This document shows, piece after piece, positions 28,785 through 46,042 of a stretch of DNA of 64,000 nt. A model generated the notes under the pieces. It was not told where the DNA came from and searched no databases. It was given only the letters and a program-made list of their open reading frames with translations. Made by a program: the position numbers and the translations under genes. Each line of letters opens with the position of its first letter. Positions within the stretch are counted from its first letter, which is position 1. The DNA lies in assembly GCA_008933805.1 (NCBI GenBank), contig WBUH01000006.1, forward strand, positions 124,001 through 188,000, given 5' to 3'. Origin of the DNA: Bacteroidota bacterium (lineage in GTDB: Bacteria; Bacteroidota; Bacteroidia; UBA8524).

Positions 28785-30023
28785 ATGCTACATTATACGC
28801 GATTTGAACTGGAAAACGGGTTAGTTGTATTGCATCATTTTGATGCAACCACACCCATTGCCGCAGTAAATATTTTATACAACGTTGGCGCAAAAGACGA
28901 AGACCCACACCGTACGGGCTTTGCACACTTGTTTGAACATTTGATGTTTGGCGGTAGCGCCAACATTTCCAATTACGACAGCGAATTGCAAAAGGCCAGT
29001 GGTGAGAATAATGCTTTTACTACTAACGATATAACCAACTACTATATTACGCTTCCCGTAAATAATATTGAGACCGCGCTTTGGTTAGAGTCTGATAGGA
29101 TGAAGGCTCTTGATTTCAGCGAGAAATCATTGGATGTGCAACGTAACGTAGTAATTGAAGAATTTAAACAGCGTTACCTAAACCAACCCTACGGCGATGC
29201 TTGGTTAAAAATTCGTCCGTTGGCTTATAAAGTGCACCCTTATTTGTGGGCAACCATCGGTAAAGAAATTAAGCACATTGAAGAGGCAACTTTGGAAGAC
29301 GTAAAAGCCTTCTTTTACAATTTCTACCGACCAAACAATGCTGTAATGACTATTGCCGGCAATATCTCTTTGGAAACTACCAAAGAGTTGGCCAACAAAT
29401 GGTTTGGAGATATTGAAAGTGCGCCCGTAAAACGCAACAACATTCAAAAAGAACCCAAACAAACCGCCGAGCGCAGAGAAAGTACCAAAGGCAATGTGCC
29501 TTACGATGCACTTTATATGGCTTGGCATTGCAGCAACCGCAGCGATGATAAATACTACACCACTGAATTAATCACCAACATACTTTCGGGCTCATCTTCT
29601 TCTCGCTTATACAACCGCTTAGTGAAAGAGCAGGAAATGTTTTCAGAATTGTATTGTTACCAAACCGATAGTACCGATGAAGGTTTGGTGATTGTGCAAG
29701 GAAATTTGGCCGAAGGAAAAACACTTGAAGAAGGAGAGAAGGCGGTACTGGATGAATTAGCGGTATTGCTTGAAAACGGTTGCAGCGATGCGGAACTTGA
29801 AAAAGTGAAGAACAAAAAAGAAACGGTATTTACTTACAGCGAAACAGAAATATTGACTAAAGCGATGAACCTATCGTTTTATGAATACTTGGGCGATGCT
29901 AACCTGATAAATACTGAGATGGATAAATTTAGAAAGGTGAACGCGGATGACATTAAAACTGTTTCACGTGAAATTTTTACGGCTGAAAACCGCTCGGTGT
30001 TGTACTACTTAAAAGAGAACTAA
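28785..30023 (+). CDS. M16 family zinc peptidase, catalytic subunit
   Basis: A 412-residue insulinase-family protein with the inverted zinc motif HLFEH (H48, E51, H52) and the downstream Glu region VVIEEFKQRY. I chose ATG 28785 (MLHYTRFELENGLVVLHHFD), the normal start of the family; the open frame runs another 115 codons upstream through promoter sequence and the divergent gene. No signal peptide is seen, so it may be cytoplasmic. It is followed four bases later by a second M16 gene lacking the zinc motif, the classic active/inactive pair. A near-parS site lies inside at 29960-29975. Confidence 0.9.
   Translation: MLHYTRFELENGLVVLHHFDATTPIAAVNILYNVGAKDEDPHRTGFAHLFEHLMFGGSANISNYDSELQKASGENNAFTTNDITNYYITLPVNNIETALWLESDRMKALDFSEKSLDVQRNVVIEEFKQRYLNQPYGDAWLKIRPLAYKVHPYLWATIGKEIKHIEEATLEDVKAFFYNFYRPNNAVMTIAGNISLETTKELANKWFGDIESAPVKRNNIQKEPKQTAERRESTKGNVPYDALYMAWHCSNRSDDKYYTTELITNILSGSSSSRLYNRLVKEQEMFSELYCYQTDSTDEGLVIVQGNLAEGKTLEEGEKAVLDELAVLLENGCSDAELEKVKNKKETVFTYSETEILTKAMNLSFYEYLGDANLINTEMDKFRKVNADDIKTVSREIFTAENRSVLYYLKEN
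29960..29975. other. parS-like site (14/16)
   Basis: TGTTTCACGTGAAATT compared with the parS consensus TGTTTCACGTGAAACA; the last two positions differ. It is inside the 3' part of the M16 gene. Confidence 0.65.
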
Positions 30024-30027
30024 AAAC

Positions 30028-31287
30028 ATGCTTGATAGAACCAAAGCACCTGCCATGCAGCAGGTTGAAAACATACATTTCCTTAACCCTGAGTTGTTTA
30101 CCCTTGATAATGGCGTAATAGTATATGCCCTCAAAGGTGGAGAACAAGAGATTATAAAAACCGATTTTGTGCTGGATGCCGGCAGCTTATTGGGCAATAA
30201 CCGCTTAGTGGCCTCAACTGCCAGCGACTTATTGTTTACCGGTGCCAACGGTAAATCCTCAGAAGAGATTGCCAACGAATTTGACTTTTACGGAGCATTC
30301 AACAGTAAATCGTGTCATTTTACAGATAACCTTATCACAAATTTTTGTTTAACAAAACACAGCGACAGTGTATATGGTTTATTAAGTGATTACATTAACA
30401 ATGCTTCGTTTACAAGCAATGAATTAGAGGTTTACAAATTTGTTAAAATACAGAACTTAACGGTTAGCAAACAGAAAACCTCGTACATAGCCCGTAAGGC
30501 ATTTACACAAGCTCTTTTTGAGGGCCATCCCTATGGATATTTTACTGAAGTAGAAGACTATAAAAATTTGACTATAAATGAAATAGAGAATTTTTATAAC
30601 GCTAACAAAAAACTAAAATACATTATTCTTTCTGGCGCTTATACGGCAGAAACCATTGCACAGCTAAACAAGTACTTTGGTAAATATGAAGTGCGCGGCA
30701 GTTGGGTGTATAACGATAGTTTCAGCAGCTCGCCTGAGAAAATCATACACATACCCAAGGCCGATGCAATGCAGTGCACGGTAAGGTTGGGTTTCAAAAC
30801 CATTAACCGTTTACACCCTGATTATCCTAAACTGGGTATTTTAGTTACATTGTTGGGTGGTTTCTTCGGCTCTCGTTTAATGAAGAATATTCGCGAGGAC
30901 AAGGGCTATACATACGGCATTCATGCATCAGTAATTTCTTATCCCGATTGTGGTGTTTTCGGTATTCAAACCGATGTGCGCAAAGAGGTGTACAACGACA
31001 CTGTGAGTGAAATATTTAAGGAAATAAATCGTTTAAAAAATGAGCCGATTAGCGACGAGGAGATAGATATACTTTCAAACTACAGCTTAGGGTCATTCCT
31101 TCGCAGTATTGATGGAGCTTTTGCAGTATCAGAAAAGTATAAAACCCTCTTAGATTTCGGCCAAGATTACAACTATTACCACAACTACATACGTCTTTTA
31201 AAGAACATCGACCGTGATGAGTTGATGCAGATAGCACGAACCTATTTTGTGGATGAAGATATTTACCAGGTGGTGGCAGGGGTTTAA
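30028..31287 (+). CDS. M16 family peptidase-like protein, non-catalytic partner
   Basis: A 419-residue M16 protein. Where the zinc motif should be it reads SSEEIANEFDFYGA, with no HxxEH. The C-terminal substrate-binding signature is kept (GGFFGSRLMKNIREDKGYTY, with the R...Y pair). It should form the second half of the peptidase clamshell with the upstream protein, four bases away. The 3' end overlaps the next gene's start by 35 bases. Confidence 0.88.
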   Translation: MLDRTKAPAMQQVENIHFLNPELFTLDNGVIVYALKGGEQEIIKTDFVLDAGSLLGNNRLVASTASDLLFTGANGKSSEEIANEFDFYGAFNSKSCHFTDNLITNFCLTKHSDSVYGLLSDYINNASFTSNELEVYKFVKIQNLTVSKQKTSYIARKAFTQALFEGHPYGYFTEVEDYKNLTINEIENFYNANKKLKYIILSGAYTAETIAQLNKYFGKYEVRGSWVYNDSFSSSPEKIIHIPKADAMQCTVRLGFKTINRLHPDYPKLGILVTLLGGFFGSRLMKNIREDKGYTYGIHASVISYPDCGVFGIQTDVRKEVYNDTVSEIFKEINRLKNEPISDEEIDILSNYSLGSFLRSIDGAFAVSEKYKTLLDFGQDYNYYHNYIRLLKNIDRDELMQIARTYFVDEDIYQVVAGV

Positions 31288-33061
31288 AAAATCCAACCCT
31301 TTAATTTCCGTTTGTGCCGGGCTGGGGATGCTATGCTCTGCCGCAACGGTATCTGCCCAAACCTTTCCTGATTTACGCCACGTATGCGCCCAAGGAATTG
31401 GAAACGATATTAATATCACATGGTCGCCAATTACTGACGGCTGTGCGGGTTTCCAAAAAATATACGTCTATGGTCGTGTTGATGCCCTGCAACCTTTTCA
31501 GCTGATTGATAGCATCGCAACGCTGGCTCAAAGCCAATACACACACGTAGGAGCCAAAGCAATATCCACCACGTGGAACTATTTTGTGGTGTACAAATTC
31601 TTGTGTAATGGAGATTCGTCAGTTTCCCGCACCTTGGCAATAGATTTCAATCAACCCGGAATTTCTAATATCGATTCGGTAAGTGTAGATTTAACCACAG
31701 GAAAAGTAGTAGTAGGGTGGAGGCCGAATCCTGTTCCCGATTTAATGGCTTATGTGGTTTGGATTAATCAAGGGGTAAATAACCTGCCCATAGATACACT
31801 AACAAATACCGTTTTTACTGATACTGCTTCAAATCCGTCAAACACTTCACTGGCTTACACATTAACAGCCGTTGATAGTTGTTGGAACCAGAGCATTATT
31901 AATACGGTGCACCGTACTGTTTTCTTGCAAAACAGTTTTGATAATTGCGGCAAAAGCATCCAGCTGAATTGGACGGCATACATGGGTTGGACAAACGTAG
32001 CCGGTTATGATGTATATGTTAGAAACGGAACTTCCGGTGGCTTTACGCTTACGGCTTCAAATACAAGCACACAATTATCACATTTATATACCGCCTTTGG
32101 CTACGGTGATACGCTTGAGTTTTATATTAAAGCAAAAGACGGAACCAATGGTTTCACGAGCACTTCTAATAAAATAAGAATAATTACCAGAGCACGTAAA
32201 TTTTCAAGCCGTAATTATTTAAGCTATGCCACGGTAATTGATTCGACATCCATAGAACTAAAATTGCTTTGCGATACGGCATCTGATACAAGAAAGTATT
32301 TCATCTTCCGCAGAAAAGAAAACGATCCTTTTGCAAAAGTTGCCGAACTAAACTACAACGGTATTGCCCAAACGTTAACCTATACCGATAACAACGTTGA
32401 ACCTTATTTGTATTCATATCAATATCGGTTTATTACTACAGATGTTTGCGATAAAGACTTAGATACCTCTAACACTGCCAAAACAATTTTTCTTTCCATT
32501 AAAAGCACTGATTTTGGGAACGACCTTGTGTGGAACAGGTATAGTATATGGGATGCAGGGGTAAACCAGTATGCTATTTATAGAGGTTTTGATTTCGGTG
32601 CCGGTTTCACGTGGAACAGTATAACAACGACTGTAAATACTGATAGCGTTTATAGTGATAATGGACTTCCGTTAGATATGGGAATAAGCGGTGTATGCTA
32701 CTATATTGAAGCTACAGAGCAGTTAGGTAACAAATATGGTGTACAAGAACTATCGCAATCAAATACAGTTTGTTTGGTTGATGATGTTACCATCTACTTC
32801 CCAAATGCATTTGCTCCAAATGAAATAAACAAACTATTCAAACCCATTGGAGCTAATATTGATTACAGGCGTACTAATATGCAAATATATGCTCGTAACG
32901 GCCAACTGCTAAAAAACATAACCGATATACGTGAAGGATGGAACGGCACGGACCTTGAGAACAATCCCTGCCAAGACGGGGTTTATTTGTATATTTGCGA
33001 AGTTTTTGGACTAAACGATAGGAAACTTAATTTTAAAGGTACGCTGCACTTACTACGATGA
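31253..33061 (+). CDS. secreted protein with T9SS type B (gliding-motility C-terminal) domain
   Basis: A 602-residue protein. ATG 31253 gives a good signal peptide (MKIFTRWWQGFKKSNPLISV... ending VSAQ near residue 37); an upstream TTG is less likely. Several fibronectin-III-like repeats follow (about 45-510). The C-terminus (about 515-602: YFPNAFAPNEINKLFKP, NMQIYARNGQLL, WNGTDLENNPCQDGVYLY) is the CHU_C / type B sorting domain seen in SprB-like proteins, which targets export through T9SS. It overlaps the M16 gene by 35 bases and ybeY by four, so it is locked in an otherwise housekeeping operon. Confidence 0.85.
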   Translation: MKIFTRWWQGFKKSNPLISVCAGLGMLCSAATVSAQTFPDLRHVCAQGIGNDINITWSPITDGCAGFQKIYVYGRVDALQPFQLIDSIATLAQSQYTHVGAKAISTTWNYFVVYKFLCNGDSSVSRTLAIDFNQPGISNIDSVSVDLTTGKVVVGWRPNPVPDLMAYVVWINQGVNNLPIDTLTNTVFTDTASNPSNTSLAYTLTAVDSCWNQSIINTVHRTVFLQNSFDNCGKSIQLNWTAYMGWTNVAGYDVYVRNGTSGGFTLTASNTSTQLSHLYTAFGYGDTLEFYIKAKDGTNGFTSTSNKIRIITRARKFSSRNYLSYATVIDSTSIELKLLCDTASDTRKYFIFRRKENDPFAKVAELNYNGIAQTLTYTDNNVEPYLYSYQYRFITTDVCDKDLDTSNTAKTIFLSIKSTDFGNDLVWNRYSIWDAGVNQYAIYRGFDFGAGFTWNSITTTVNTDSVYSDNGLPLDMGISGVCYYIEATEQLGNKYGVQELSQSNTVCLVDDVTIYFPNAFAPNEINKLFKPIGANIDYRRTNMQIYARNGQLLKNITDIREGWNGTDLENNPCQDGVYLYICEVFGLNDRKLNFKGTLHLLR

Positions 33062-33474
33062 TTAGCTTTTTTACTGAAGACGTTGATTATACCCTGAAAG
33101 ATAAACTTAAAATCAAACGTTGGATACAACAAACGGTAGCTTCTGAAAGCAAAAAAACCGGAGATATTAATATCATTTTTTGCAGCGATGAGTACTTGCT
33201 AGAGGTAAACAAACAATACCTCGACCATGATTACTATACCGATATTATTACCTTTAACTACAATACTGATAAAATAAACGGAGATTTGTTTATCAGTTTG
33301 GATAGAATAGTAGATAATGCGAATCAAAATAATGTTCCACGTGAAACAGAACTTTTACGAGTAATCATTCACGGGGTATTACACTTGGTTGGCTATAATG
33401 ATAAAACAGCCAAAGAAGAAAAAGAAATACGGGCAAAAGAAGATTCGTGTATTAAAAATTACCAAGAACTATAA
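33058..33474 (+). CDS. ybeY: endoribonuclease / rRNA maturation factor
   Basis: A 138-residue UPF0054 protein. It acts in the cytosol in 16S rRNA 3' maturation and ribosome quality control. The metal motif reads HGVLHLVGYND (about 110-120): the first two His are kept, but the third ligand His of the E. coli form is Asp, a variation I associate with Bacteroidota. The start overlaps the previous stop by four bases. A 15/16 parS-like site lies inside, and an exact parS sits just after the stop. Confidence 0.9.
   Translation: MISFFTEDVDYTLKDKLKIKRWIQQTVASESKKTGDINIIFCSDEYLLEVNKQYLDHDYYTDIITFNYNTDKINGDLFISLDRIVDNANQNNVPRETELLRVIIHGVLHLVGYNDKTAKEEKEIRAKEDSCIKNYQEL
33333..33348. other. parS-like site (15/16)
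   Basis: TGTTCCACGTGAAACA differs from parS at position 5 only. It is inside the ybeY coding region. Confidence 0.75.
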
Positions 33475-33487
33475 TAAGAGTGTGAAA

Positions 33488-33503
33488 TGTTTCACGTGAA
33501 ACA
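33488..33503. other. parS centromere site (exact)
   Basis: TGTTTCACGTGAAACA is an exact 16-of-16 match to the bacterial parS consensus, a perfect palindrome. It lies in the 47-base gap between ybeY and mnmG. ParB binds such sites to organise and separate newly copied origins. Confidence 0.9.
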
Positions 33504-33510
33504 TTAATAT

Positions 33511-33516
33511 AAGGAG
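33511..33516 (+). promoter_or_regulatory. Shine-Dalgarno-like site of mnmG
   Basis: AAGGAG five bases before ATG 33522. Most genes in this window lack such a site, as usual in Bacteroidota. Confidence 0.5.
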
Positions 33517-33521
33517 TACAA

Positions 33522-35384
33522 ATGTTTGATAATTACGATATAATAGTAGTAGGTGGAGGCCATGCAGGCTGTGAAGCAGCGGCATCGGCAGCAAATATGG
33601 GTAGCAAAGTACTACTGGTTACAATGAATATGCAAACCATTGCCCAAATGAGCTGTAATCCGGCGATGGGTGGGGTGGCAAAAGGACAAATAGTGCGTGA
33701 GATAGATGCATTGGGTGGATATAGCGGTATTGTAACGGATAAAACCATGATACAATTCCGTATGCTTAACAAAAGCAAAGGTGCAGCTATGTGGAGCCCT
33801 CGGGCTCAAAGCGACCGTTGGTTGTTTGCCCAAGAGTGGAGAATGATGTTAGAGCGTACACCAAACGTTGATTTCTTTCAGGATACCGTAAAGAGTCTTA
33901 TAGTAAAAGATAATAGCGTACAGGGTGTTGTTACTTCTATGGGAATGACTTTTCATTGCAAAGCAGTAGTACTTACCAATGGTACTTTCTTGAACGGATT
34001 AATACACATAGGAGCTAAACAATTTGGAGGTGGACGTATGGGGGAGAAATCAGCCACAGGTATTACTGAACAATTGGTTGAATTAGGTTTTGAAGCCGGA
34101 CGTATGAAGACAGGTACGCCGCCCAGAGTGGATGGACGTAGTTTAAATTACGAAGCAATGGAAGAACAACAAGGGGATGAAGTACCTTCTAAATTCTCGT
34201 ACAGTTCAGAAACTAAACCGTTAGAAAAACAACGCAGCTGTTACATTACCTATACCAATTCTAGCGTTCACGAAACCCTTAGAACAGGTTTTGATGAATC
34301 ACCCATGTACAATGGTACTATTCAAAGTATAGGCCCTAGGTATTGCCCCTCGATTGAAGATAAAATAAACCGTTTTGCAGAGCGCGACAGGCATCAAATA
34401 TTTGTAGAACCCGAAGGTTGGGATACTGTAGAAGTATATGTAAATGGTTTTTCTACATCATTGCCCGATCATGTTCAAGTAAAAGCGTTGCAACAAATAC
34501 CCGGATTTGAGAATGCTAAAATATTCCGTCCCGGTTATGCTATCGAATATGATTACTTTCCACCCACCCAGCTAAAACAAACATTAGAAACCAAACTGGT
34601 GGAGAATCTATACTTCGCTGGCCAAATAAATGGTACCACAGGATATGAAGAGGCTGCTTGCCAAGGATTGATGGCAGGTATCAATGCTCATTTAAAAGTA
34701 ACAGAACAAAACCCATTTATCCTTTCTCGTTCTGATGCTTATATCGGTGTATTAATTGATGACCTTATTAATAAAGGTACAGAAGAACCTTACCGTATGT
34801 TTACTTCAAGAGCTGAGTATAGGATTTTGCTTCGTCAGGATAATACTGATATACGTTTAACTGAAAAAGGATATCAAATTGGTTTGGCTAAACAGGATAG
34901 ATACGATGCTGTTAAAAGGAAAATTGAAGCTTCTGAGTCAATAGTTAAACACCTAAAAAAGACCAGTATTACACCTACTGAAATAAACGGTTTATTAAAC
35001 GAATTGGGTACTGCTGAAATTAATCAGAACTATAAGCTTGGCCAGCTTTTATTACGTCCTCAAATAAACATTACCGACTTAGAAAAACTAGGCACAGTTT
35101 CTGAGTATCTTTCAGCATTTAGCGAAGAAGAAAAACTTCAGGCAGAAATAAGCATCAAATACGAAAGCTACATTGAGAAAGAAGTGGAAACGGTAGAGAA
35201 AATGACAAGGTTAGAAAACATCAAAATACCTACCTCATTTAACTACAAGGGACTAAACTCTCTTTCAGCAGAAGCCAGAGAAAAACTTACTAAAATTAAA
35301 CCAGATACCTTAGGACAGGCATCAAGGATTAGTGGAGTTTCTCCCTCTGATATTTCTGTATTGATGATACATTTCGGAAGATAG
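33522..35384 (+). CDS. mnmG: tRNA uridine-5-carboxymethylaminomethyl modification enzyme
   Basis: A 620-residue FAD protein (GidA). The dinucleotide-binding motif VVGGGHAGCEAA is at about 9-20. Family segments MGGVAKGQIVREIDALGG, KTGTPPRVDGRS and FAGQINGTTGYEEAACQG are all present, and the C-terminal tRNA/MnmE-binding region ends with ASRISGVSPSDISVL. With MnmE it modifies the wobble uridine of several tRNAs. The gene is often near the replication origin; here it stands beside an exact parS site. It has a Shine-Dalgarno-like AAGGAG. Confidence 0.97.
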   Translation: MFDNYDIIVVGGGHAGCEAAASAANMGSKVLLVTMNMQTIAQMSCNPAMGGVAKGQIVREIDALGGYSGIVTDKTMIQFRMLNKSKGAAMWSPRAQSDRWLFAQEWRMMLERTPNVDFFQDTVKSLIVKDNSVQGVVTSMGMTFHCKAVVLTNGTFLNGLIHIGAKQFGGGRMGEKSATGITEQLVELGFEAGRMKTGTPPRVDGRSLNYEAMEEQQGDEVPSKFSYSSETKPLEKQRSCYITYTNSSVHETLRTGFDESPMYNGTIQSIGPRYCPSIEDKINRFAERDRHQIFVEPEGWDTVEVYVNGFSTSLPDHVQVKALQQIPGFENAKIFRPGYAIEYDYFPPTQLKQTLETKLVENLYFAGQINGTTGYEEAACQGLMAGINAHLKVTEQNPFILSRSDAYIGVLIDDLINKGTEEPYRMFTSRAEYRILLRQDNTDIRLTEKGYQIGLAKQDRYDAVKRKIEASESIVKHLKKTSITPTEINGLLNELGTAEINQNYKLGQLLLRPQINITDLEKLGTVSEYLSAFSEEEKLQAEISIKYESYIEKEVETVEKMTRLENIKIPTSFNYKGLNSLSAEAREKLTKIKPDTLGQASRISGVSPSDISVLMIHFGR

Positions 35385-35409
35385 TATCTTCGCGCAGCAA
35401 TACTAAAAC

Positions 35410-37014
35410 ATGCTACGCACAAAAATAACCCCGTTAGTACTCCTTTTTCTTTGTTCCTGCGCAAGCATAGTATCGCCAACAGGCGGTCCTAAAGATACCA
35501 CACCTCCGGTTTGTACCAAACAAATACCGGCAGCTAATACCACTCGTTTTAACGAAAAGAAGATTGCATTTGTATTTGATGAGTTTGTGGTATTAAACGA
35601 TGTTACCAATCAATTTATCATGTCTCCGCCTATGGAGAAGAACCCAGAGATAAAAGTGGTAGGTAAACGCATAGAAATTGAATTTAAAGAAGCTTTACTA
35701 CCCAATACTACCTACACACTAAACTTTGGTAATTCGATAGCAGATAATAACGAAGCAAACCAATTACAAGGGTTAACCTATACGTTCTCTACAGGCAATT
35801 ATATAGACAGTTTAAAGCTAAACGGATCCGTAAAGGATGCTTTTACATTATTACCGGATAAGAACATCGCTGTAGCCTTGTACGAAACAAAAGACGATTC
35901 TACCATCTTTAAAACAAAACCATCGTATTTAGTACGTCCGGATAGTACGGGTAATTTTAAGTTTAATTACCTACGCCCTGCTGAGTATGAGCTGGTAGCT
36001 TTTGAGGACATTAATAAGAATCTTAAAATTGAAACCAACGAAAAAGTAGGGTTCTATTCAACAAAAATAAACCTCGCTTATAATCAGCAAGACAGTTCAT
36101 CAACTGCCTATAACCTGATGGTATCACCACAACCGAGCAATCTAAAACCACAGGTTATTACAGCAAAAGAAAAATCAAAAGGAAAATACGAGGTAATTGT
36201 AACAGGTAGTAATTGTAAACTCTTTGTAGAAGAGCCCGGAGCAAATAAAAAAGCTACGTTTATTCAGCAAGTATCAGGAAAATTATGCGACACACTGATG
36301 CTGTATACCGATATAAATTTTATAGACTCAGTTATATTACCTGTAACCATTGATACAGTGGTTGAAAATGCTACAATCACTTGTAAGTCAAAACAATACG
36401 ATAAATTTAAGTTAACTTCTCAAGAAAATATTCTTAACTACGATTTCAGCAAACCTTTATCGGTTGGATTTACCAACCCCGTGACTGAAATCCGCAAGCA
36501 ACTTGTTTATTTAAAAGAAGATAGCATAGAAGTAACTGATTTCACACTTACCAACGATAGTATTAACCCCTTGCTGTTTCACGTGAACAAACAATGGAAA
36601 GACGACAAGAATTACACCCTAATCTTCTCAAAAGGAGCGATTAAGGACTTGTTTGGTCAAGAATGTGATTCAACCATCATCCAACTTAAAACAGCTCCTT
36701 CAACGGCTTTTGGTAATCTTACAATCAATATCGATAACAAGGCAAACACAAATTTAATCGTTCAATTACTTGATAATCAAAACACTATAGTAAAAGAACA
36801 AACCATTGATAAGTCGCAGGATATTACCTACCAAAACCTGTTTCCAGGTCAATACTTCGTAAAAGTGATAGAAGACACCAATAAAAACGGCCGTTGGGAC
36901 GGTGCAAACTACCAAAAAAAGAAGCAGGAAGAAAGGGTATTTATCACCCTACAATCCATTGAAGTCCGCGCCAATTGGGACTTAACGGATATTAAAATAG
37001 TTACGGGCTTTTAA
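35410..37014 (+). CDS. Ig-like domain lipoprotein
   Basis: A 534-residue protein with a lipoprotein signal (MLRTKITPLVLLFLCSC; lipidated Cys about 17) and the hallmark SPTGGPKDTTPP next to it. An SbsA-type Ig-like domain (about 32-135) follows with IAFVFDEFVVLND and NTTYTLNFGNSIADNNE. A carboxypeptidase-regulatory-like region comes next (about 140-240), then more Ig-like sequence. This family is general in Bacteroidota; the function is unknown, perhaps an envelope structural protein. A 14/16 parS-like site lies inside the gene. Confidence 0.85.
   Translation: MLRTKITPLVLLFLCSCASIVSPTGGPKDTTPPVCTKQIPAANTTRFNEKKIAFVFDEFVVLNDVTNQFIMSPPMEKNPEIKVVGKRIEIEFKEALLPNTTYTLNFGNSIADNNEANQLQGLTYTFSTGNYIDSLKLNGSVKDAFTLLPDKNIAVALYETKDDSTIFKTKPSYLVRPDSTGNFKFNYLRPAEYELVAFEDINKNLKIETNEKVGFYSTKINLAYNQQDSSSTAYNLMVSPQPSNLKPQVITAKEKSKGKYEVIVTGSNCKLFVEEPGANKKATFIQQVSGKLCDTLMLYTDINFIDSVILPVTIDTVVENATITCKSKQYDKFKLTSQENILNYDFSKPLSVGFTNPVTEIRKQLVYLKEDSIEVTDFTLTNDSINPLLFHVNKQWKDDKNYTLIFSKGAIKDLFGQECDSTIIQLKTAPSTAFGNLTINIDNKANTNLIVQLLDNQNTIVKEQTIDKSQDITYQNLFPGQYFVKVIEDTNKNGRWDGANYQKKKQEERVFITLQSIEVRANWDLTDIKIVTGF
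36575..36590. other. parS-like site (14/16)
   Basis: TGTTTCACGTGAACAA, two differences from parS at positions 14 and 15. It is inside the Ig-like lipoprotein gene. Confidence 0.6.
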
Positions 37015-37396
37015 TGTTAACAACTGTGAATTAGTGTTGATTACTAAAGGGTTCTTAACATCTCAACAGAGCTTGAAAAATTGAGTGTTTACAGAAAAGG
37101 ATAAGTAGGTGGTTATCCTCATCCACGCACACAAAAAAGAGGAAAAAGGATATTAACAATAAGCCCTGTATAAAGATATAAGCATGTTAAGAATATCTTA
37201 ACTTAGTGTTAAAAATCAACTACTTAACTGCGGTATAGCTACGTCAGCAAAAAGTTAATAAGTAAAAAGCAATAGGTGCTGAGAGGAGGTTATCTACAAA
37301 TCCACACAGACTATATATACAACATAATTATTTTAAATATATTTTGTTTTTAGTGTTGGGGACAACGGGGATTTTCAAAAATCAACCGAATTGAAA
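37015..37396. other. candidate replication origin (AT-rich region with DnaA-box-like words)
   Basis: The 417-base gap before pheS has no gene. It holds TTATCCTCA (37113-37121) and TTATCTACA (37290-37298), each 8 of 9 to the DnaA box TTATCCACA. Each is followed at once by a further ATCCAC word (37121-37126, 37300-37305). A palindrome GTTAAGA-ATA-TCTTAAC stands near 37186-37202. An almost pure A+T stretch (37309-37352) could be the unwinding element. Together with the parS sites nearby this suggests oriC, but no box is exact and dnaA is not adjacent. Confidence 0.5.
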
Positions 37397-37404
37397 TATC
37401 TTTG
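37397..37404 (+). promoter_or_regulatory. Bacteroidota -7 promoter element for pheS
   Basis: TATCTTTG, perfect TAnnTTTG, 27 bases before ATG 37432. It overlaps an in-frame TTG at 37402, which therefore is not likely to be the start codon. Confidence 0.5.
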
Positions 37405-37431
37405 ATACTTGAAATAAGCGGAAGTGAACCG

Positions 37432-38445
37432 ATGATTGAAGAAATTGAACTCTTAAAAAAAGAAGCCGACCAGTTTGAGATAAGCGAAAAAAATTCGCTG
37501 GAAGAATACCGCCTGAAATTTCTTTCGAGAAACGGGCTTATGAACAAATTGTTTGAAAACTTCAAACTTGTTCCCAATGAGCAAAAACGCGAAATGGGAC
37601 AAAAAATCAACGTTTTAAAAACCTTTGTTCAACAAAAATTTGACGAGGCTTCTCAACGCTTGGAAGAAAGTGCGACATCTGCGGATGATGGAACTGATTA
37701 CTCGATGCCTACCCAACAAACCATTGGAAGCAGGCATCCGCTAAACATCATCCAAAACCAAATACTCGAAATCTTTGCCAAACTTGGATTTGAAGTAGGA
37801 GAAGGTCCGGAAATAGAGCACGACTGGTATAATTTTTCGGCGCTAAATTTCCCCGAAAACCACCCTGCCCGCGATATGCAGGATACCTTTTTTGTGGATA
37901 AGGAATATGCCTTACGTACTCACACGACTTCGGTGCAGGTAAGGGTGTTAGAAAATACCAAACCTCCCGTTCGTATGGTTTCGCCCGGCAGAGTGTACCG
38001 CAACGAGGCGATATCAGCGCGTGCCCACTGCTTTTTCCATCAGGTGGATGGCTTTTATGTGGACAAAGGCGTATCATTTGCCGACCTTAAACATACCCTT
38101 TATACATTTGTAAATCAGCTATTTGGTAGCGACACTAAAGTGCGTTTCCGTCCTTCTTATTTTCCGTTTACCGAAGTAAGTGCCGAAATGGACTGTACTT
38201 GCTTTTTGTGTAAGGGCAAAGGTTGCAATGTTTGCAAATACACAGGCTGGGTAGAGATTTTGGGAAGCGGTATGATTGACCCTGCTGTATTGAAAAACTG
38301 CGGAATTGATCCCGAAGAATACAGTGGGTTTGCTTTTGGTATGGGCGTTGAACGTATTACCATGCTGAAATACGACGTGAAGGATTTACGGATGTACTCA
38401 GAAAACAACGTTAAATTCCTTAGTCAATACAAAGGGGTTGTATAG
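37432..38445 (+). CDS. pheS: phenylalanine-tRNA ligase alpha subunit
   Basis: A 337-residue class II aminoacyl-tRNA synthetase subunit. The N-terminal coiled coil (1-80) binds tRNA. Then come motif 1 (GSRHPLNIIQNQILEIFAKL), motif 2 (RMVSPGRVYRNEAISARAHC, FHQVDGFY) and motif 3 (GFAFGMGVERITMLKY). A Cys-rich insertion CTCFLCKGKGCNVC is typical of Bacteroidota PheS. It pairs with PheT, which is not in the window. I chose ATG 37432; the longer TTG start would lie inside the promoter. Confidence 0.96.
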   Translation: MIEEIELLKKEADQFEISEKNSLEEYRLKFLSRNGLMNKLFENFKLVPNEQKREMGQKINVLKTFVQQKFDEASQRLEESATSADDGTDYSMPTQQTIGSRHPLNIIQNQILEIFAKLGFEVGEGPEIEHDWYNFSALNFPENHPARDMQDTFFVDKEYALRTHTTSVQVRVLENTKPPVRMVSPGRVYRNEAISARAHCFFHQVDGFYVDKGVSFADLKHTLYTFVNQLFGSDTKVRFRPSYFPFTEVSAEMDCTCFLCKGKGCNVCKYTGWVEILGSGMIDPAVLKNCGIDPEEYSGFAFGMGVERITMLKYDVKDLRMYSENNVKFLSQYKGVV

Positions 38446-38536: not shown

Positions 38537-40735
38537 ATGAAAAAAGTTCTTTTATCCGCCCTATTTATAGCTTGTGCCGCAGTTGCCATGTCGCAAACCA
38601 AGCGTGCACTTTTCATAGGCATCAATACCTATTTGCCCGAAGGAGAAAAAGCAACGGGGAGTAGAGATGCACCGCCAAACCTGAACGGTTGTGTAAACGA
38701 TGCCCTATCGGTAAAAGAAATCATGATTACCCGCTTTGGGTTTGATGATAAAAACACTGCTACACTTTTTAACCAAGAGGCCAGTCGCGATGCCATTATC
38801 AAGGCTATTGAAAAACTGATTACCGATTCAAAATCAGGTGATGTGGTTTTTATCTTTTATGCTGGGCATGGGTCGCAGGTAAATAATTCATTATCAAAAG
38901 AAAACGACAAAAAAGACGAAACCATAGTTCCCGCCGATGCCTACAAGGGTGTTTTTGACATCCGCGATAAGGAAATGGCGGTATTACTGAATAAATTGGT
39001 AGAAAAGGGTGTAAAACTGACTGCGATATTTGACAGTTGCCACAGTGGGTCATTATCAAGAGGGGATAATGAATATAGATTCTCTCCCGGCGATAGTCGC
39101 GACGTGAAAGATGCTTCTGAACCAACCCCTCCGGAAGAAAAAGGAGCGTTGATTATCAGTGCAGCCCGCGATGTAGAACCCGCAAAAGAAGTAAAAGACG
39201 AACAAGGCTACCCACACGGAGGATTCACTCTTGCTTTGATAAAAGTACTGAGGGATGAGCCGGTTACATCTACCGTTCAAAAGTTGTTTAACCGTATCGA
39301 GGCCATCATGGAGTATTACAACCTTACCCAAAAACCCGTTTTGGCTGCAAACGATGAACGCCGAATAGGTACATTTTTAGGAGTTGACCGCTCACAGTTG
39401 CCTGATAAAATGGTGATACCCGTTATAAAAGTAGATAACGGATTGGTATTGTTGCAAGCAGGTATGCCCTCACGATTGAGCCCGAAAAGTCAGCTGCAAC
39501 GCAAAACCGACAAAGGCATTTTAAAAATTGAGGTGGTACGTCTTGACGGTCCTAACCGTTGTTATGCAAAAATAATTGAGGGTGACCCCAAAGGATTGAA
39601 ACCCGGCGATGATTTTGAAGTTACCAATGTGGTAATGGATGCCTCGGCAGCAGTGAAAATCTACATATACAACAGCGCATTTGATTATAAAAGTTTGGTG
39701 GCGAGTGCCAAAACGCTTGCCGATAAAAACTACAAAGCATCGGCCAATTCGTTTTCGTACCAAGAGATATACTACGATAAAAACAACTGGATAGTAACCT
39801 ACGCCGACAAAAACCCCGAAACCATCGGAACCCAGCTAAAAACCGATAAACTGATTACCGATTCTACCCTTGCCATTAACCTACCGGCAACCCAAGCGTT
39901 GGCCAAGGTATTGCAAGAACGGTTTAAGAAATTTTCGATAGTAACGATGGTAAACAACCCCGCTGACGCTGATTACGTGTTAGTAGGTCGTTACAAAAAC
40001 AACAAAATAGAGTATGCATTGGTGAACCCCGACCGTCAATACGACGACGGTACCCGCAGCTACTCAATGCCTGCGCGCACCAACTATTTTGAAATCAACG
40101 AAAACCAAGGAGTTGAACAATCGTTGGCAGATAGTTTAGAAGAATACATTTTGCGTATTGCCAAAGTGAAATCGTGGTTAACGCTGCAAAGCCCTCCCGA
40201 TGACGGCAGTTTCCCTTTTTCGTTCTCACTTAGGAAATCATCAAACGGTCAGTTGTTGGGCGACGGTGCCGAGGTAATGTACGGCGATACGATGGGTCTT
40301 GTATTTACAGTAGATGAAGTAAACGAAGCGTATTGGGACCGAAACAAACGCTACGTGTATATCTTCTCGATTGATAAAAATTCAAAAATGACGTTGTTGT
40401 TCCCCCGCAGTATTACGGGCGAAAACACTTACCCTGCCGTTGACAAACAAACGTTTGAAATTAAGCAAAATGCGCCGTTGGGCGCTGCGCGCCTCTTTAG
40501 AGTTAGCGATAGTGTAGGAACGTTGAATTACATGATGTTTACCAGCGCTGAACCCATCAACAACCTTGAAATATTTAAACAAGAGGGTGTGCTAAGGGAA
40601 AAATCAGGAGAAAGGGGAGGAAGCCCGCTGGAACAACTGCTAAAAGGGGTTGGCGAAAGCACCCGCGATGAATTAATAGCTCCCGCCAATTGGTCAATTA
40701 CAAGAATTTCAGTAAAATGCGTACCACGTAAATAA
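38537..40735 (+). CDS. exported caspase-family protein with DUF4384
   Basis: A 732-residue protein with a signal peptide (1-19, ending AMSQ). The caspase p20-like domain (about 22-290) has FIFYAGHGSQ with catalytic His111 and IFDSCHSGS with catalytic Cys168, as in metacaspases. A middle region (about 300-540) is unassigned. A DUF4384-like domain (about 545-680: SFSLRKSSNGQLLGDGAEVM, YVYIFSIDKNSKMTLLFP) follows. It should work in the periplasm or at the envelope. It is the first gene of a four-gene operon with a CHASE2 protein, a FecR-like protein and a second caspase. Its protein targets are unknown. Confidence 0.88.
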   Translation: MKKVLLSALFIACAAVAMSQTKRALFIGINTYLPEGEKATGSRDAPPNLNGCVNDALSVKEIMITRFGFDDKNTATLFNQEASRDAIIKAIEKLITDSKSGDVVFIFYAGHGSQVNNSLSKENDKKDETIVPADAYKGVFDIRDKEMAVLLNKLVEKGVKLTAIFDSCHSGSLSRGDNEYRFSPGDSRDVKDASEPTPPEEKGALIISAARDVEPAKEVKDEQGYPHGGFTLALIKVLRDEPVTSTVQKLFNRIEAIMEYYNLTQKPVLAANDERRIGTFLGVDRSQLPDKMVIPVIKVDNGLVLLQAGMPSRLSPKSQLQRKTDKGILKIEVVRLDGPNRCYAKIIEGDPKGLKPGDDFEVTNVVMDASAAVKIYIYNSAFDYKSLVASAKTLADKNYKASANSFSYQEIYYDKNNWIVTYADKNPETIGTQLKTDKLITDSTLAINLPATQALAKVLQERFKKFSIVTMVNNPADADYVLVGRYKNNKIEYALVNPDRQYDDGTRSYSMPARTNYFEINENQGVEQSLADSLEEYILRIAKVKSWLTLQSPPDDGSFPFSFSLRKSSNGQLLGDGAEVMYGDTMGLVFTVDEVNEAYWDRNKRYVYIFSIDKNSKMTLLFPRSITGENTYPAVDKQTFEIKQNAPLGAARLFRVSDSVGTLNYMMFTSAEPINNLEIFKQEGVLREKSGERGGSPLEQLLKGVGESTRDELIAPANWSITRISVKCVPRK

Positions 40736-40741
40736 ACTGCC

Positions 40742-41929
40742 ATGCAAGGTAAATATCTTATACGCGACAGTATTGGTGCCACCATAGGGGTTTTCCTTGT
40801 GATGGCACTTTTTGCTTACATCCCGTTTAACTTTAAAATACTGGATCCGTTGAAACACGGGCTAAAGGATTTTGAGTTCAGCGATATTTACTTCACCAAA
40901 ATAAAAAAAGAAGCCCCGATAGACAGTAACATCATTATTGTAAATGTGGGCTATAACAACCGTTTCGGTTTGCTGCAACAGTTACAACGCATTAAACAAG
41001 CAGGCCCCGCGGTGATAGGGTTTGACATACAACTGCTAAAAAATAAAGACCCCTTTATTGATTCGCTGTTAACGGCTGAAATCAATAACACGCCCAATAT
41101 GGTAATGGCTTCATACCTTTCAGGGAAAGGCCATGAAAATTACCGCTCGGAAGTAGTAACTACGGCGTTACCCCTCACCAACCCAACGTGGGGCTATATA
41201 AATTTCATAGGCAAAGACTCCACCTATCCCGTGCGCTACTTCAAACCCTTTTATGAGTTTACCAAAACTCCCCAAGAAGCGTTTGCCACAGCCATTGTTA
41301 AAAAATACAATCCGGCCGCCTATGAAGCGTTGAAAGGCAGGGGCAAACCCCTTGAAACCATTAATTACAGCCGCAGGCAAGATCAATACCACATAATAGA
41401 TGCCTTTGAGCTGGAAGACACTGCACTTGACATCAATGTGATGAAGGACAAAATAGTGTTGATGGGTTTCTTAGGGCCGGATTTAAAAACCAAAGTGATA
41501 GAAGAAAACCGCTTCACGCCCATGAACCCAAAGTTCAGCGGCAAAGCTTTCCCTGATATGTACGGCGTCATTATCCATGCAAACATTATCAGCTCAATCC
41601 TTGAAGGAAAATACATCAACAAAGTGCCATCGTGGTTGTCAATGGTACTGGCCTTTATTATTTGCTGGATACACGTGTTCTTTTTTACCAAGTTTTACAT
41701 CCGTCAGCACAAATTCTTCCACTTGGTAACCAAAATCATACAGCTGCTCACGTTTGTGTTAATGGTGTATCTTTCGTTTTTCTTCCTGTCGAAATTCGGG
41801 CTGAAAATAGATATGTCGCCCATATTGGCGGGTATCGCCCTGTCGGTAGATGTATTGTATTTTTACGACGGGTTTGCTACCTGGCTAAAAGAAAAGTACG
41901 GCTACCACACCGTTTTTGGCCACCACTAA
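40742..41929 (+). CDS. CHASE2 domain membrane protein without output domain
   Basis: A 395-residue protein. An N-terminal helix (about 10-29) leads to a CHASE2 extracytoplasmic sensor domain (about 35-285: SNIIIVNVGYNNRFGLLQQL, GPAVIGFDIQLLKNKD, DKIVLMGFLGPDLKTK, YGVIIHANIISSILEGKYIN). Three membrane helices follow (about 292-312, 326-350, 355-378). In other bacteria CHASE2 is joined to a kinase, cyclase or phosphatase; here the protein ends 15 residues after the last helix. It starts six bases after the caspase gene, so signal output through the neighbouring proteins is inferred. Confidence 0.88.
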   Translation: MQGKYLIRDSIGATIGVFLVMALFAYIPFNFKILDPLKHGLKDFEFSDIYFTKIKKEAPIDSNIIIVNVGYNNRFGLLQQLQRIKQAGPAVIGFDIQLLKNKDPFIDSLLTAEINNTPNMVMASYLSGKGHENYRSEVVTTALPLTNPTWGYINFIGKDSTYPVRYFKPFYEFTKTPQEAFATAIVKKYNPAAYEALKGRGKPLETINYSRRQDQYHIIDAFELEDTALDINVMKDKIVLMGFLGPDLKTKVIEENRFTPMNPKFSGKAFPDMYGVIIHANIISSILEGKYINKVPSWLSMVLAFIICWIHVFFFTKFYIRQHKFFHLVTKIIQLLTFVLMVYLSFFFLSKFGLKIDMSPILAGIALSVDVLYFYDGFATWLKEKYGYHTVFGHH

Positions 41930-42005
41930 AAGGTATAATTTCAAACATTTAACAACATAGTATTTACCAAATTGTAACTAAACGTATATAAACCAAAAGT
42001 AAGCG

Positions 42006-42947
42006 ATGAAAAACCTGATAATCATATTCTTTGCCCTATTGACAATAAGCCTTAGGGCCAATGGCGGCGATAATGAGTTTGTGGCCTTCTCGCTAAAAGG
42101 TAAAGTACAATACAAAAACAAAGCGGCCGACAAAGCATGGACGGCTGTTGCCACCAAAACCCCCTTCTACAAAGGAGCGGTGGTAAAAATAGGCAAGGGC
42201 GAAGAATTGGTGCTGTTGCACAAAAACTACAAAACCATAAAGCTTATCAAAGCCGGCGAGTACAAAATAGATAATCTTATTAAAGAGGCTGAAAAACAAC
42301 CCGCCGACGAAAGCACTGCCTATTTGCAGTTTATATGGAAAGAGTTTAACAAAAAACACAAAGATGCTGAAAGCTACCACAGTGAGTATATGCAAACCAA
42401 AGGCGGCGTGGAGCGCAGCGGCTGCACACGCCCGTTGATGCTAACCCCCGTGTATGGCGAAAAGAAACACGGTGAAAACATCACCCTTACATGGGCACAG
42501 GATAGCGGCACTACTACCTATACTGTAGTGTTTTTTGAGAACGAAAACGAAGACACCAAGTTGTTGGAGTTGGATGTAAACGGCACATCGCTCACCCTTT
42601 CGGCACAAACATTTTGGTTTCGTCCCGGCAAAACCTATTACTGGGTGGCCTATCCCAAAGGCAAACCCAACTGCGCCCGCTACACATTCAGCATAATAAA
42701 AGACGAAGAAGCCCAAGCGTTTCTTTCAGGGATAGCGAAACAATTAGAAACGTATACTGTAACGGCTCTTGATTATGTAAAAGCCGCATCACAATTAGAA
42801 GAAGCAGGCTATATGCAAGAAGCAGGGGAGTACTACAAGAACGCAATGGTACTATCCAATTATGCCGACGAATTCAAAATAATCTATAGTGGTTGGCTGG
42901 CTCGCGCAGGCAACTTTGAAGAAGCCCGCAAATGGTGGGTAGCATAA
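42006..42947 (+). CDS. exported FecR-like protein
   Basis: A 313-residue protein with a signal peptide (about 1-20, ending RANGG). Residues 25-95 resemble a FecR domain (SLKGKVQYKN..AWTAVATKTPFYKGAVVKIGKGEELVLL...IKLIKAGEYKI). A beta-rich Ig-like middle (about 145-230) and a helical, TPR-like C-terminus (about 240-313: AASQLEEAGYMQEAGEYYKN) follow. There is no sigma factor or TonB receptor nearby, so it is not a standard FecR relay. It sits 14 bases before the TPR-caspase gene and probably acts with it in the periplasm. Confidence 0.7.
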   Translation: MKNLIIIFFALLTISLRANGGDNEFVAFSLKGKVQYKNKAADKAWTAVATKTPFYKGAVVKIGKGEELVLLHKNYKTIKLIKAGEYKIDNLIKEAEKQPADESTAYLQFIWKEFNKKHKDAESYHSEYMQTKGGVERSGCTRPLMLTPVYGEKKHGENITLTWAQDSGTTTYTVVFFENENEDTKLLELDVNGTSLTLSAQTFWFRPGKTYYWVAYPKGKPNCARYTFSIIKDEEAQAFLSGIAKQLETYTVTALDYVKAASQLEEAGYMQEAGEYYKNAMVLSNYADEFKIIYSGWLARAGNFEEARKWWVA

Positions 42948-42961
42948 CAATCCTAAATGTC

Positions 42962-45900
42962 ATGAGAAAAACCGTATTGGTTATAGTTTCCCTGTTTGTG
43001 TTTGCTCACTTGCAAGCACAGATAGAGCTTATCAAACAAAAGCCGGATGCCATAAACGGCAAAGGCAAAATATACGCCTTGATTATCGGGATTTCGGATT
43101 ACGAAAACATAGGTGACCTGAACTATGCCGATGAGGACGCCCAAGACTTTTACGACTTTTTAGTAAAAGAATCAGACTTAGGAGTCGACTCAAACAACGT
43201 GCGCTTATTGCTGAACAAAAACGCGACTTCGGCCAACGTGGGTAAAGAGTTGCTTAAACTCAAAAACCGCATGGAAGAAGGCAGCACCTTCTTTTTCTAT
43301 TTTGCCGGACACGGCGATGCCAACGGCGAAGCACAGGCGTTTTTGTTGGCCTCGGATTTACCGCCTGTTGAAGACCCCAGCCTGTATGCCTTTGGCGGCG
43401 GGGTGATTCACGTGTACTTTATCAAAGACGAAATCCGTAAAATAATCACAGAGAAAAAGACCAACGTAATATTGGTAACCGATGCCTGCCGCACCAACGA
43501 ATTGGCCGGAAGCAAAGAGGGCACCAAGGCCTACGTAAATAAAATCATGGAGCAGAACAGCGGCGAAATTCAATTTATAAGCTGTGCTGCCGATGAAAAA
43601 TCAGAAGAGAGCGACTCTTGGGGACAAGGAAGAGGGGTGTTCTCTTACTTTTTTATGAACGGACTACGCGGTTTGGCTGACAGTCGCCCTGCCGATGGCA
43701 AAGTAACCGTGCGTGAATTGTACGACTATGTTCAACGCAACGTAGAAGAAGCAACCATTGTTACCGACGAAGACCTGATTGCCGTAACGGGCAAAGCGTT
43801 CCGTCAAAGTCCTCAGTATTGCTGCACCGAAAAGCAAAACGCCACCCTTGTATTGGTAAATGATGCGGTGAAACAAAACGCCATTGCAAAAATGGCCGCC
43901 GCAGAGCACACCATTAAACTGGCCTCAAACAAAGGCCGCTCGGCAATACGCACCCTGCAAACCAGCGATAGCGTATTAAAAGAGTTGTACAACAAATTTT
44001 ATGATGCACTAGACAATAAAAAGCTGACCTCACCCAAGGGAAAATCGGCATGGGATTATTACACAGCCTTTAAAAACCGAGCGGGCAAAAACGGCCCCGG
44101 TGTTTTTGATGCCACCGAAGACATAAAAGCAGCCTTACTTAACGATGCGCAAATCACCATTAATGCGTTTTACAGCTACAACGATAAGTGGGGAATGAGC
44201 GATAAAACCAAACGCGACTTTTACGAAGAAGGGGTAGAGAAACTACGCAAGGCCCGCAGTTTGATGGCTCCCGACGACCCCAACTCACCCATTGTAAAAC
44301 TTACCCGCCAGTGCATGGAGGCCGCGGGAATATTTGCCTCAAACCAACCCGACGACTGGAAACGTGGAATAAAGATGATGGATAGCGCAATTACAGCATT
44401 CCCTAAAAATCCATTGCCATTATTTTTAAAAGGCAGGCTGCTATACAATATGGCAAGCTACGATTCAGCCTTGGTGTACCTGCGCAAAAGCCATAGCATC
44501 GCTCCACGCTGGAGCATGCCTACTATTGGCATATCGGACGTTTACAGTGAGTTGGAGCAGTACGATAGTGTGGAAGTGCTACTGAATGAAGTGATAGAAA
44601 AGAACCCCGTAGCCATTGCCTATTTTAAATTAGGCTACCACTACGGAGAACACAAAGAAGACTATGAGAGTGCTGTGTTTTACAGCAAAATGGCACACGA
44701 ACTGGCTCCTGAAAAAACCAACATCATTAACAACATCGGAGCCTATTACGAAAAACAAGGCGAAGAAGACTCTGCGCTTGTGTATTATGAAATGGCGTAT
44801 AGCCTAGACTCGAACAACGCCTTTACGCTGTGCAACATTGGTAAATACCACCTTGAAAAAGGATATTACGAAAAGGCAGAGGAAGCCCTTTTAAGGGCGC
44901 TTAAAGCCGACTCAACGGAATCGGTTGCCTATCGAAGCTTGGGAGATTTGTATCTTAAAAAGAGCGATTTCTACCAATATAAATTGGGTCAACGGTTAAA
45001 GTTCTGGAACTTATCTATTGCCAACTATGAAAAGGCAATTAAGTACAAACCGGCCGACAAATATTTATACTCAATAAAAGCATCTGCTGAGTCGGTGATG
45101 GACATTGCTTTATCAGAAGCAACCATGAACCGATATCTAAAATATGGTAAACCTGACGCGGACTATTACAACGAGTTTGCATTAATATACCTGCACAACG
45201 AAGACACAGCAAAAGCAATGAACCTCTTTAAAAAGGGGATAGAGGCCGATAGCAACTTCTATTATCCGTATTTTAACATTGGCGAGATATTTTATTACAA
45301 CAGCCAATGGGATAGTGCCCTTAAGTATTATGAAAAGGCAATCAGCATTGATGATAAAATCAATTATTTAGGCTACAAGACAGAAAGAATAAACGAAAAG
45401 ATACAAGAGGAGCTGGATAGAACAGAATTAATAGCTACAAAAGAAAGATTGTTGGTTACTCAGCAAACAGATATTAACTCGGCTCTTGAGTTGGCAAACA
45501 TATACCTTAGCGAAGGCAACAACGATAGCGCGTATGCACTGTATTTGCGAGTGATAGAAAATGATCCTCAAACCTCGTCGGATACCTATTTAAGCCTTTT
45601 CCAAAGTGCGCGCTACAGCTACGAACACACTGTAGATACCGCGATAATGTATTTAGCCAAGGCAGCTCGTGAACGTAAAGATATTTCGCTGGCGTATGAA
45701 TACATCTATTATGTAAAAGACAATAGTGGATATTTATACAATGAAGAAGCGGCTGAGTGCGGGAAACTTTACTTTGCTTGTGAACCTACCCAGCCGGATG
45801 ATTACAGACTTGGCGATATGGCGTATTACATAGCGATGGTTTACAACAACAGCGGGGATACTGAAAAAACGCTGGGTTGGCTGGAAGAAAGCCTTAAAAA

Positions 45901-46042
45901 AGGCTATTGGGCAAGCAATCTTACAATGGACTACAACTTTGATAACCTTGCGGAGAACAAACAGTTTAAAAAGCTGATTAAAAAATACGGCAAGAAACAA
46001 AAGCAACAAGCACCCGTAGAAGATGAATATAATTGGCGGTAA
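42962..46042 (+). CDS. exported caspase-TPR protein
   Basis: A 1026-residue protein with signal peptide (1-20, ending LQAQ). I chose ATG 42962 because it starts at MRKTVLVIVSLFVF; an upstream in-frame Met at 42932 would bury the signal. The caspase domain (about 35-280) has FYFAGHGDA with His117 and LVTDACRTNE with Cys176. From about 400 to 1000 it is a long array of tetratricopeptide repeats (such as AIAYFKLGYHYGEHKEDYES and KALKYYEKAISIDDKI-like units). TPRs bind partner proteins. The stop codon overlaps a promoter-like TAACTTTG for the next gene. Confidence 0.88.
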   Translation: MRKTVLVIVSLFVFAHLQAQIELIKQKPDAINGKGKIYALIIGISDYENIGDLNYADEDAQDFYDFLVKESDLGVDSNNVRLLLNKNATSANVGKELLKLKNRMEEGSTFFFYFAGHGDANGEAQAFLLASDLPPVEDPSLYAFGGGVIHVYFIKDEIRKIITEKKTNVILVTDACRTNELAGSKEGTKAYVNKIMEQNSGEIQFISCAADEKSEESDSWGQGRGVFSYFFMNGLRGLADSRPADGKVTVRELYDYVQRNVEEATIVTDEDLIAVTGKAFRQSPQYCCTEKQNATLVLVNDAVKQNAIAKMAAAEHTIKLASNKGRSAIRTLQTSDSVLKELYNKFYDALDNKKLTSPKGKSAWDYYTAFKNRAGKNGPGVFDATEDIKAALLNDAQITINAFYSYNDKWGMSDKTKRDFYEEGVEKLRKARSLMAPDDPNSPIVKLTRQCMEAAGIFASNQPDDWKRGIKMMDSAITAFPKNPLPLFLKGRLLYNMASYDSALVYLRKSHSIAPRWSMPTIGISDVYSELEQYDSVEVLLNEVIEKNPVAIAYFKLGYHYGEHKEDYESAVFYSKMAHELAPEKTNIINNIGAYYEKQGEEDSALVYYEMAYSLDSNNAFTLCNIGKYHLEKGYYEKAEEALLRALKADSTESVAYRSLGDLYLKKSDFYQYKLGQRLKFWNLSIANYEKAIKYKPADKYLYSIKASAESVMDIALSEATMNRYLKYGKPDADYYNEFALIYLHNEDTAKAMNLFKKGIEADSNFYYPYFNIGEIFYYNSQWDSALKYYEKAISIDDKINYLGYKTERINEKIQEELDRTELIATKERLLVTQQTDINSALELANIYLSEGNNDSAYALYLRVIENDPQTSSDTYLSLFQSARYSYEHTVDTAIMYLAKAARERKDISLAYEYIYYVKDNSGYLYNEEAAECGKLYFACEPTQPDDYRLGDMAYYIAMVYNNSGDTEKTLGWLEESLKKGYWASNLTMDYNFDNLAENKQFKKLIKKYGKKQKQQAPVEDEYNWR

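Follow-up and report, generated by a model that had tools for sequence, protein, structure and literature searches.

A 417-bp intergenic gap (positions 37015..37431) in a draft Bacteroidota genome is, judged from sequence, very probably the chromosomal replication origin (oriC), of the usual bacterial kind, beside mnmG and parS and not beside dnaA. The window, meaning the whole stretch of DNA analysed, is 64,000 nucleotides long (G000:C6:124001-188000) and belongs to a 4.29-Mb draft of 40 contigs. The gap had been put forward as a candidate origin in an initial annotation, and the proposal is supported by a parS cluster unique in the genome, by DnaA boxes conserved in the family and in Cytophagales-type loci, by a box pair at the edge of an A+T-rich stretch, and by the GC skew of relatives. 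A probable origin is thereby placed in a little-known order of Bacteroidota, on a draft genome and without using dnaA, and would let read-depth growth-rate estimates be centred correctly.

The gap separates a Big_5/DUF2141 protein gene (35410..37014, + strand), the marker directly before the origin in relatives, from pheS (37432..38445, + strand). The Big_5/DUF2141 gene is preceded by ybeY and mnmG (gidA; 33522..35384, + strand; TIGR00136), and the mnmG loci most similar to that of the window are Bacteroidota records, by the titles of the named loci. The gap was first drawn to 37396; it ends at 37431, the next base (37432) being the ATG of pheS. It was also described as an unusually long gene-free stretch, and in a crude list of open reading frames it is among the longest of the window but not the longest. 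As originally described, the main reading frames right of the gap are all on the + strand (up to 66 kb), and so are those to its left (28.4 to 37 kb), which had been raised as a counterpoint. Among the same-strand genes right of pheS (38537-46042) are one for a CHASE2 protein and two for caspase-like proteins (Peptidase_C14), of which one has TPR repeats. The locus does lack dnaA, which sits on contig C9; the region upstream of dnaA was rejected as an origin, as no box cluster occurs there.

Compared with the DnaA box TTATCCACA, the gap holds two 9-mers at one mismatch (TTATCCTCA at 37113 and TTATCTACA at 37290) versus 0.13 in dinucleotide shuffles (P ~0.007), and seven at up to two mismatches (five of them at two) versus 1.64 in shuffles, a count found in 0 of 300 shuffles. 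This excess, together with the matrix rank given below, identifies a DnaA-box cluster in an intergenic gap, as expected of a DnaA-dependent oriC. The four same-strand words noticed at first form two overlapping pairs on the + strand: TTATCCTCA overlapping TCATCCACG (37113..37127, offset 6) and, head to tail at the edge of the proposed unwinding region, TTATCTACA overlapping AAATCCACA (37290..37306, offset 8). The words had been scored as 8/9 matches, which is correct for one word of each pair, but the other is 7/9. Two weak boxes on the - strand (TAATTCACA and TAATCAACA, 37025..37043) lie at the Big_5 side, with boxes near this place in three family relatives, and a further weak box on the - strand (TTGTCCCCA, 37357..37365) lies at the pheS side, with TTAGCCACA at the matching place in relatives. 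The gap has no perfect TTATCCACA, the closest being one at 37893 within pheS, and the whole genome has 27 scattered exact matches, below the 45 of a reversed control, so a search for exact TTATCCACA finds no origin here.

The proposed DNA unwinding element is the lowest-GC 50-mer of the gap (37308..37357; 14% GC). It begins right after the box pair, as its counterparts do in relatives, which gives the A+T-rich element beside boxes expected of a DnaA-dependent oriC. A 44-base A+T run had been reported: the A+T-rich stretch is real, but it contains five G/C, and only 22 bases (37324-37345, inside the proposed element) are pure A/T, the longest such run in the window. Another 44-mer of the window (at 24203) is more A+T rich than that of the gap. 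The palindrome reported earlier was confirmed (37186..37202, GTTAAGA-ATA-TCTTAAC), with 7-base arms and a 3-base loop.

All five parS-like sites of the genome (≤2 mismatches, 4.29 Mb) fall at window positions 29960-36590, within 7.1 kb of the gap, versus two forward matches for the reversed pattern used as a control. One is perfect (TGTTTCACGTGAAACA, 33488..33503), 18 bases before mnmG; one has a single mismatch and lies inside ybeY (33333..33348); and three have two mismatches (29960..29975, 32603..32618, and 36575..36590, the last inside the Big_5 gene). The placement of parS at 0.4 to 7 kb from the gap therefore holds, all five sites lying to its left, around mnmG, and this proximity is that expected of a DnaA-dependent oriC. 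A single ParB passed the cut-off, on contig C18, where parA precedes the ParB gene, so that the parS cluster, ParB and ParA of a chromosomal ParABS centromere are all present. Of 40 class relatives, a number that includes the genome of the window, 30 carry parS at ≤1 mismatch and ten have none. By hand tally, parS lies ≤ ~310 bp from mnmG in 24 of these 30 (the exceptions being G010, G016, G018, G031, G036, and G039, with no mnmG found in G016), and at ≤2 mismatches it lies within 600 bp of mnmG in 57 of 73 named loci scanned; mnmG and parS thus travel together in the class. In some Bacteroidota genomes examined, parS occurs on both sides of mnmG.

The window's order comprises five searchable genomes, all of one family. 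The succession of mnmG, Big_5 gene, and gap is kept in all three same-family genomes compared (G001, G002, and G003), with pheS next in G001 and G003; the G002 contig ends at the pheS side of the gap. Gap lengths are 390 bp (G001) and 386 bp (G003), and boxes in G001, G003, and G002, respectively, number 3, 5, and 2 at ≤1 mismatch and 7, 10, and 8 at ≤2 mismatches. The total box score of the window's gap (61.9 at matrix threshold 2) is like that of the relatives (60.4-73.9). For four of the seven box-like sites in the window's gap, at least two of the three relatives carry a counterpart on the same strand no more than 10 bp away, against a mean of 1.3 sites at random (P 0.026); the positions of the pair at 37113..37127 are not common to two of the three. 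The best match to the pair motif described below lies, always on the + strand, 276 bases after the Big_5 stop in the window (0 mismatches) and 269, 273, and 267 bases after it in G001, G002, and G003 (2, 3, and 3 mismatches). In G013, a genome of another order, the gene order is the same except that an extra gene separates mnmG from Big_5, and one box at a single mismatch is present. An inverted repeat with 5-base arms, GTGGCTAACGCCAC, immediately precedes pheS in G001 and G003 and lies at the very point where the G002 contig breaks off (near 3505 in L047, 6115 in L048, and 12015 in L050); the window lacks it.

Further afield, 24 of the loci examined have a Big_5 homologue after mnmG. Ten of these were grouped by record title (Rufibacter, Flammeovirgaceae, Lunatimonas, Roseivirga, Emticicia, Runella, Aquirufa, Fibrivirga, Larkinella, and a Cytophagales MAG) as Cytophagales-type, the order to which we take them to belong. 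All ten of these loci have 2-12 boxes in the 500 bp that follow the Big_5 gene, where 0.2-0.7 would be expected. The same 500 bp hold 0-1 boxes in six Sphingobacteriales-type loci, so the position of the box cluster is not class-wide; in the latter, the best box clusters lie ~+3.4 to +5.5 kb from mnmG. L054, L063, and L068 have 1, 1, and 0 boxes there. These comparisons bear on a reading of the gap as promoter and leader of pheS, A+T rich for that reason and with box-like words arising by chance, which its A+T richness and its place directly before pheS would suit. We regard that reading as very unlikely: the boxes exceed those of shuffles, an Rfam scan of the gap before pheS found no RNA family at gathering score, and the box cluster and A+T edge occur at the same place in the Cytophagales-type loci, with no PheS match found downstream in the ten loci drawn.

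Several gaps end their series of boxes with a head-to-tail pair at offset 8, directly before the lowest-GC stretch. A pair motif, TTRTNYACAWATCCACA, was drawn by eye from L055, L057, L073, L079, and the window's own copy, leaving out L056, L059, L060, L077, and L083; only the remaining loci therefore test it freely. At ≤2 mismatches, the ten Cytophagales-type loci contain 11 matches in the 5 kb after Big_5 versus 2 in their other 210 kb, and 17 matches occur in 1.29 Mb of other loci. The motif is on the + strand in nine of the ten, and the 60 bases following the pair have 13-32% GC in all 13 copies examined, those nine included. Among the matches listed for this genome, the window's copy alone has 0 mismatches. 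At 1 mismatch, the 40 class relatives give 41 matches versus 35 for the reversed control, mostly background. Read by eye, G017 has one match 2.8 kb after mnmG, on the strand of mnmG, and G039 has two perfect matches ~4 kb from its parS. In most of the 13 copies (Cytophagales-type and same-family), the second box is followed within a few bases by the word TAATA, where the window has TATATA. A strict DnaA-trio test (≥3 NAN trios within 16 bases of the box) passes in 6 of 13 loci examined and fails for the window, measured from the second box.

It is conceivable, although we would put it somewhat short of even, that a lineage-specific origin core is common to Cytophagales and this small order: a 17-base, head-to-tail pair of DnaA boxes overlapping by one base and fixed at the edge of the unwinding element, with a TAATA word within a few bases in most copies, tied to mnmG, the Big_5 gene, and parS, with dnaA elsewhere. 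Such a core would be a variant of its own within the tandem-box unwinding module, with DnaA loaded through overlapping instead of separate boxes.

A box matrix derived from the gaps of the ten Cytophagales-type loci, none of them of the window's family, was applied to contig C6 and to sampled stretches of the genome, 20 of them 20 kb long and one 18 kb long (~647 kb in total, or 15% of the genome; 12,781 scanning windows). The gap ranked first of the 12,781 at threshold 2 and was the second locus at threshold 4; at threshold 6 it was outscored by the parA cluster on C18, a C7 site, and scanning windows within pheS. The C18 cluster scores above the gap at both thresholds 4 and 6, with three 9-mers at ≤1 mismatch (one perfect) within 240 bp before parA. 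It speaks for an origin beside parAB on C18 or, in the same reading, elsewhere in the parS neighbourhood, the pheS gap then being a DnaA-bound or ordinary regulatory region. Yet none of the three same-family genomes with full-length parA has such a box within 500 bp before it, and all three keep the boxes of the pheS gap; moreover, the C18 boxes lie in a coding gene (the intergenic gap there is only ~60 bp), and the locus around parA has no parS at ≤3 mismatches. An origin away from the pheS gap is accordingly improbable, and the cluster upstream of parA was rejected as an origin because it is not conserved in relatives. The C18 words (G000 C18:45860-45990; L209:15860-15990) fall inside the start of a divergent gene that reads by eye as solute-binding-protein-like; through these words, DnaA may control parAB in this species.

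A skew minimum at ~37 kb, the check originally named for an origin in the pheS gap, did not appear cleanly on the gap's own 229-kb contig, C6, in GC, AT, or fourfold-site skew. Cumulative GC skew has a shallow local low near 8-11 kb and its lowest point at the contig's right end, in a draft of unordered contigs, and fourfold-site skew shows no sign change. This weak own-contig skew is the main result against the origin claim. It would also be explained, along with the weak boxes, if the gap were a relic and the lineage now initiated elsewhere or without DnaA; the lack of a perfect box in the gap and of a clean skew turn on C6 points that way. The box pair and A+T edge are kept, though, the total box score is like that of relatives, and dnaA has an open reading frame whose DNA-binding end carries the word GGRDHSTVIHA, leaving a relic with the slightest probability of the alternatives weighed here. 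In relatives (three genomes, 20 sampled stretches per genome), skew is found to turn at or near the place corresponding to the proposed oriC. The change from - to + falls in the same sampled stretch as mnmG in G037 (mnmG at 1.348 Mb) and in Emticicia (G042; mnmG at ~1.276 Mb), and in Roseivirga (G041) it turns at ~406 kb, 20-25 kb from mnmG (~385-387 kb), with single stretches further out also changing sign; all three thus turn at mnmG or within ~25 kb.

For the pheS gap as oriC, we infer the following course, from DnaA binding through opening and firing to segregation. DnaA, encoded by dnaA on another contig, would bind boxes throughout the gap, its last anchor being the overlapping head-to-tail pair (37290-37306). 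From the pair it would extend onto the A+T-rich stretch at 37308-37357 and open it, the replicative helicase would be loaded there, and forks would leave both ways. ParB on the five parS sites left of the gap, around mnmG, would gather and move the new origins.

To our knowledge, Escherichia coli carries no chromosomal parS. Its oriC (gidA/mioC) is like the one proposed in the window in having mnmG as neighbour, gidA (mnmG) neighbouring oriC in E. coli and Yersinia according to the accessible part of PMC10225481; the window's oriC would lie 1.6 kb after mnmG, with the Big_5 gene between. For the Flavobacteriaceae Algorimicrobium (PMC12843772) and Mariniflexile (PMC11278836), the available portions of the papers describe an Ori-Finder oriC next to mnmG in agreement with GC skew, that of Mariniflexile being away from dnaA. 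These cases share the mnmG neighbour and are predictions in another order; unlike them, the gap of the window lies between a Big_5 gene and pheS, in a draft without skew support of its own. In PMC10197239, as far as its accessible text extends, ori was set from the parS cluster and skew in 12 gut bacteria, two of them Bacteroidetes, with read coverage in agreement and with an ori that is not in every case at dnaA. Muribaculum intestinale and Bacteroides caecimuris have their oriC at a parS cluster, as is proposed for the window, and belong to another order; that text gives neither their DnaA boxes nor their gene neighbours. Since mnmG-linked, dnaA-distant, and parS-cluster origins have already been reported in Bacteroidota, the origin proposed here is of a known kind. 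What is new is its position in this order and, perhaps, the overlapping box pair. A literature search, judged by paper listings and the passages found and with most subscription papers outside its reach, came upon no naming of such a pair in Bacteroidota. A common box pair would offer a signature of the origin, short and open to testing, in a phylum whose oriC commonly lies at a distance from dnaA, as stated for Bacteroidetes in the available part of PMC4755523. The nearest mechanistic comparison is the basal unwinding system of Bacillus subtilis oriC, for which the accessible part of PMC8287927 describes tandem DnaA boxes beside the opened stretch and trios, the upstream box tending to match better. 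The window is alike in its tandem boxes beside an A+T stretch, here read from the letters alone; unlike those of B. subtilis, its boxes overlap by one base (offset 8), and no three consecutive NTN triplets lie within 16 bases of the second one.
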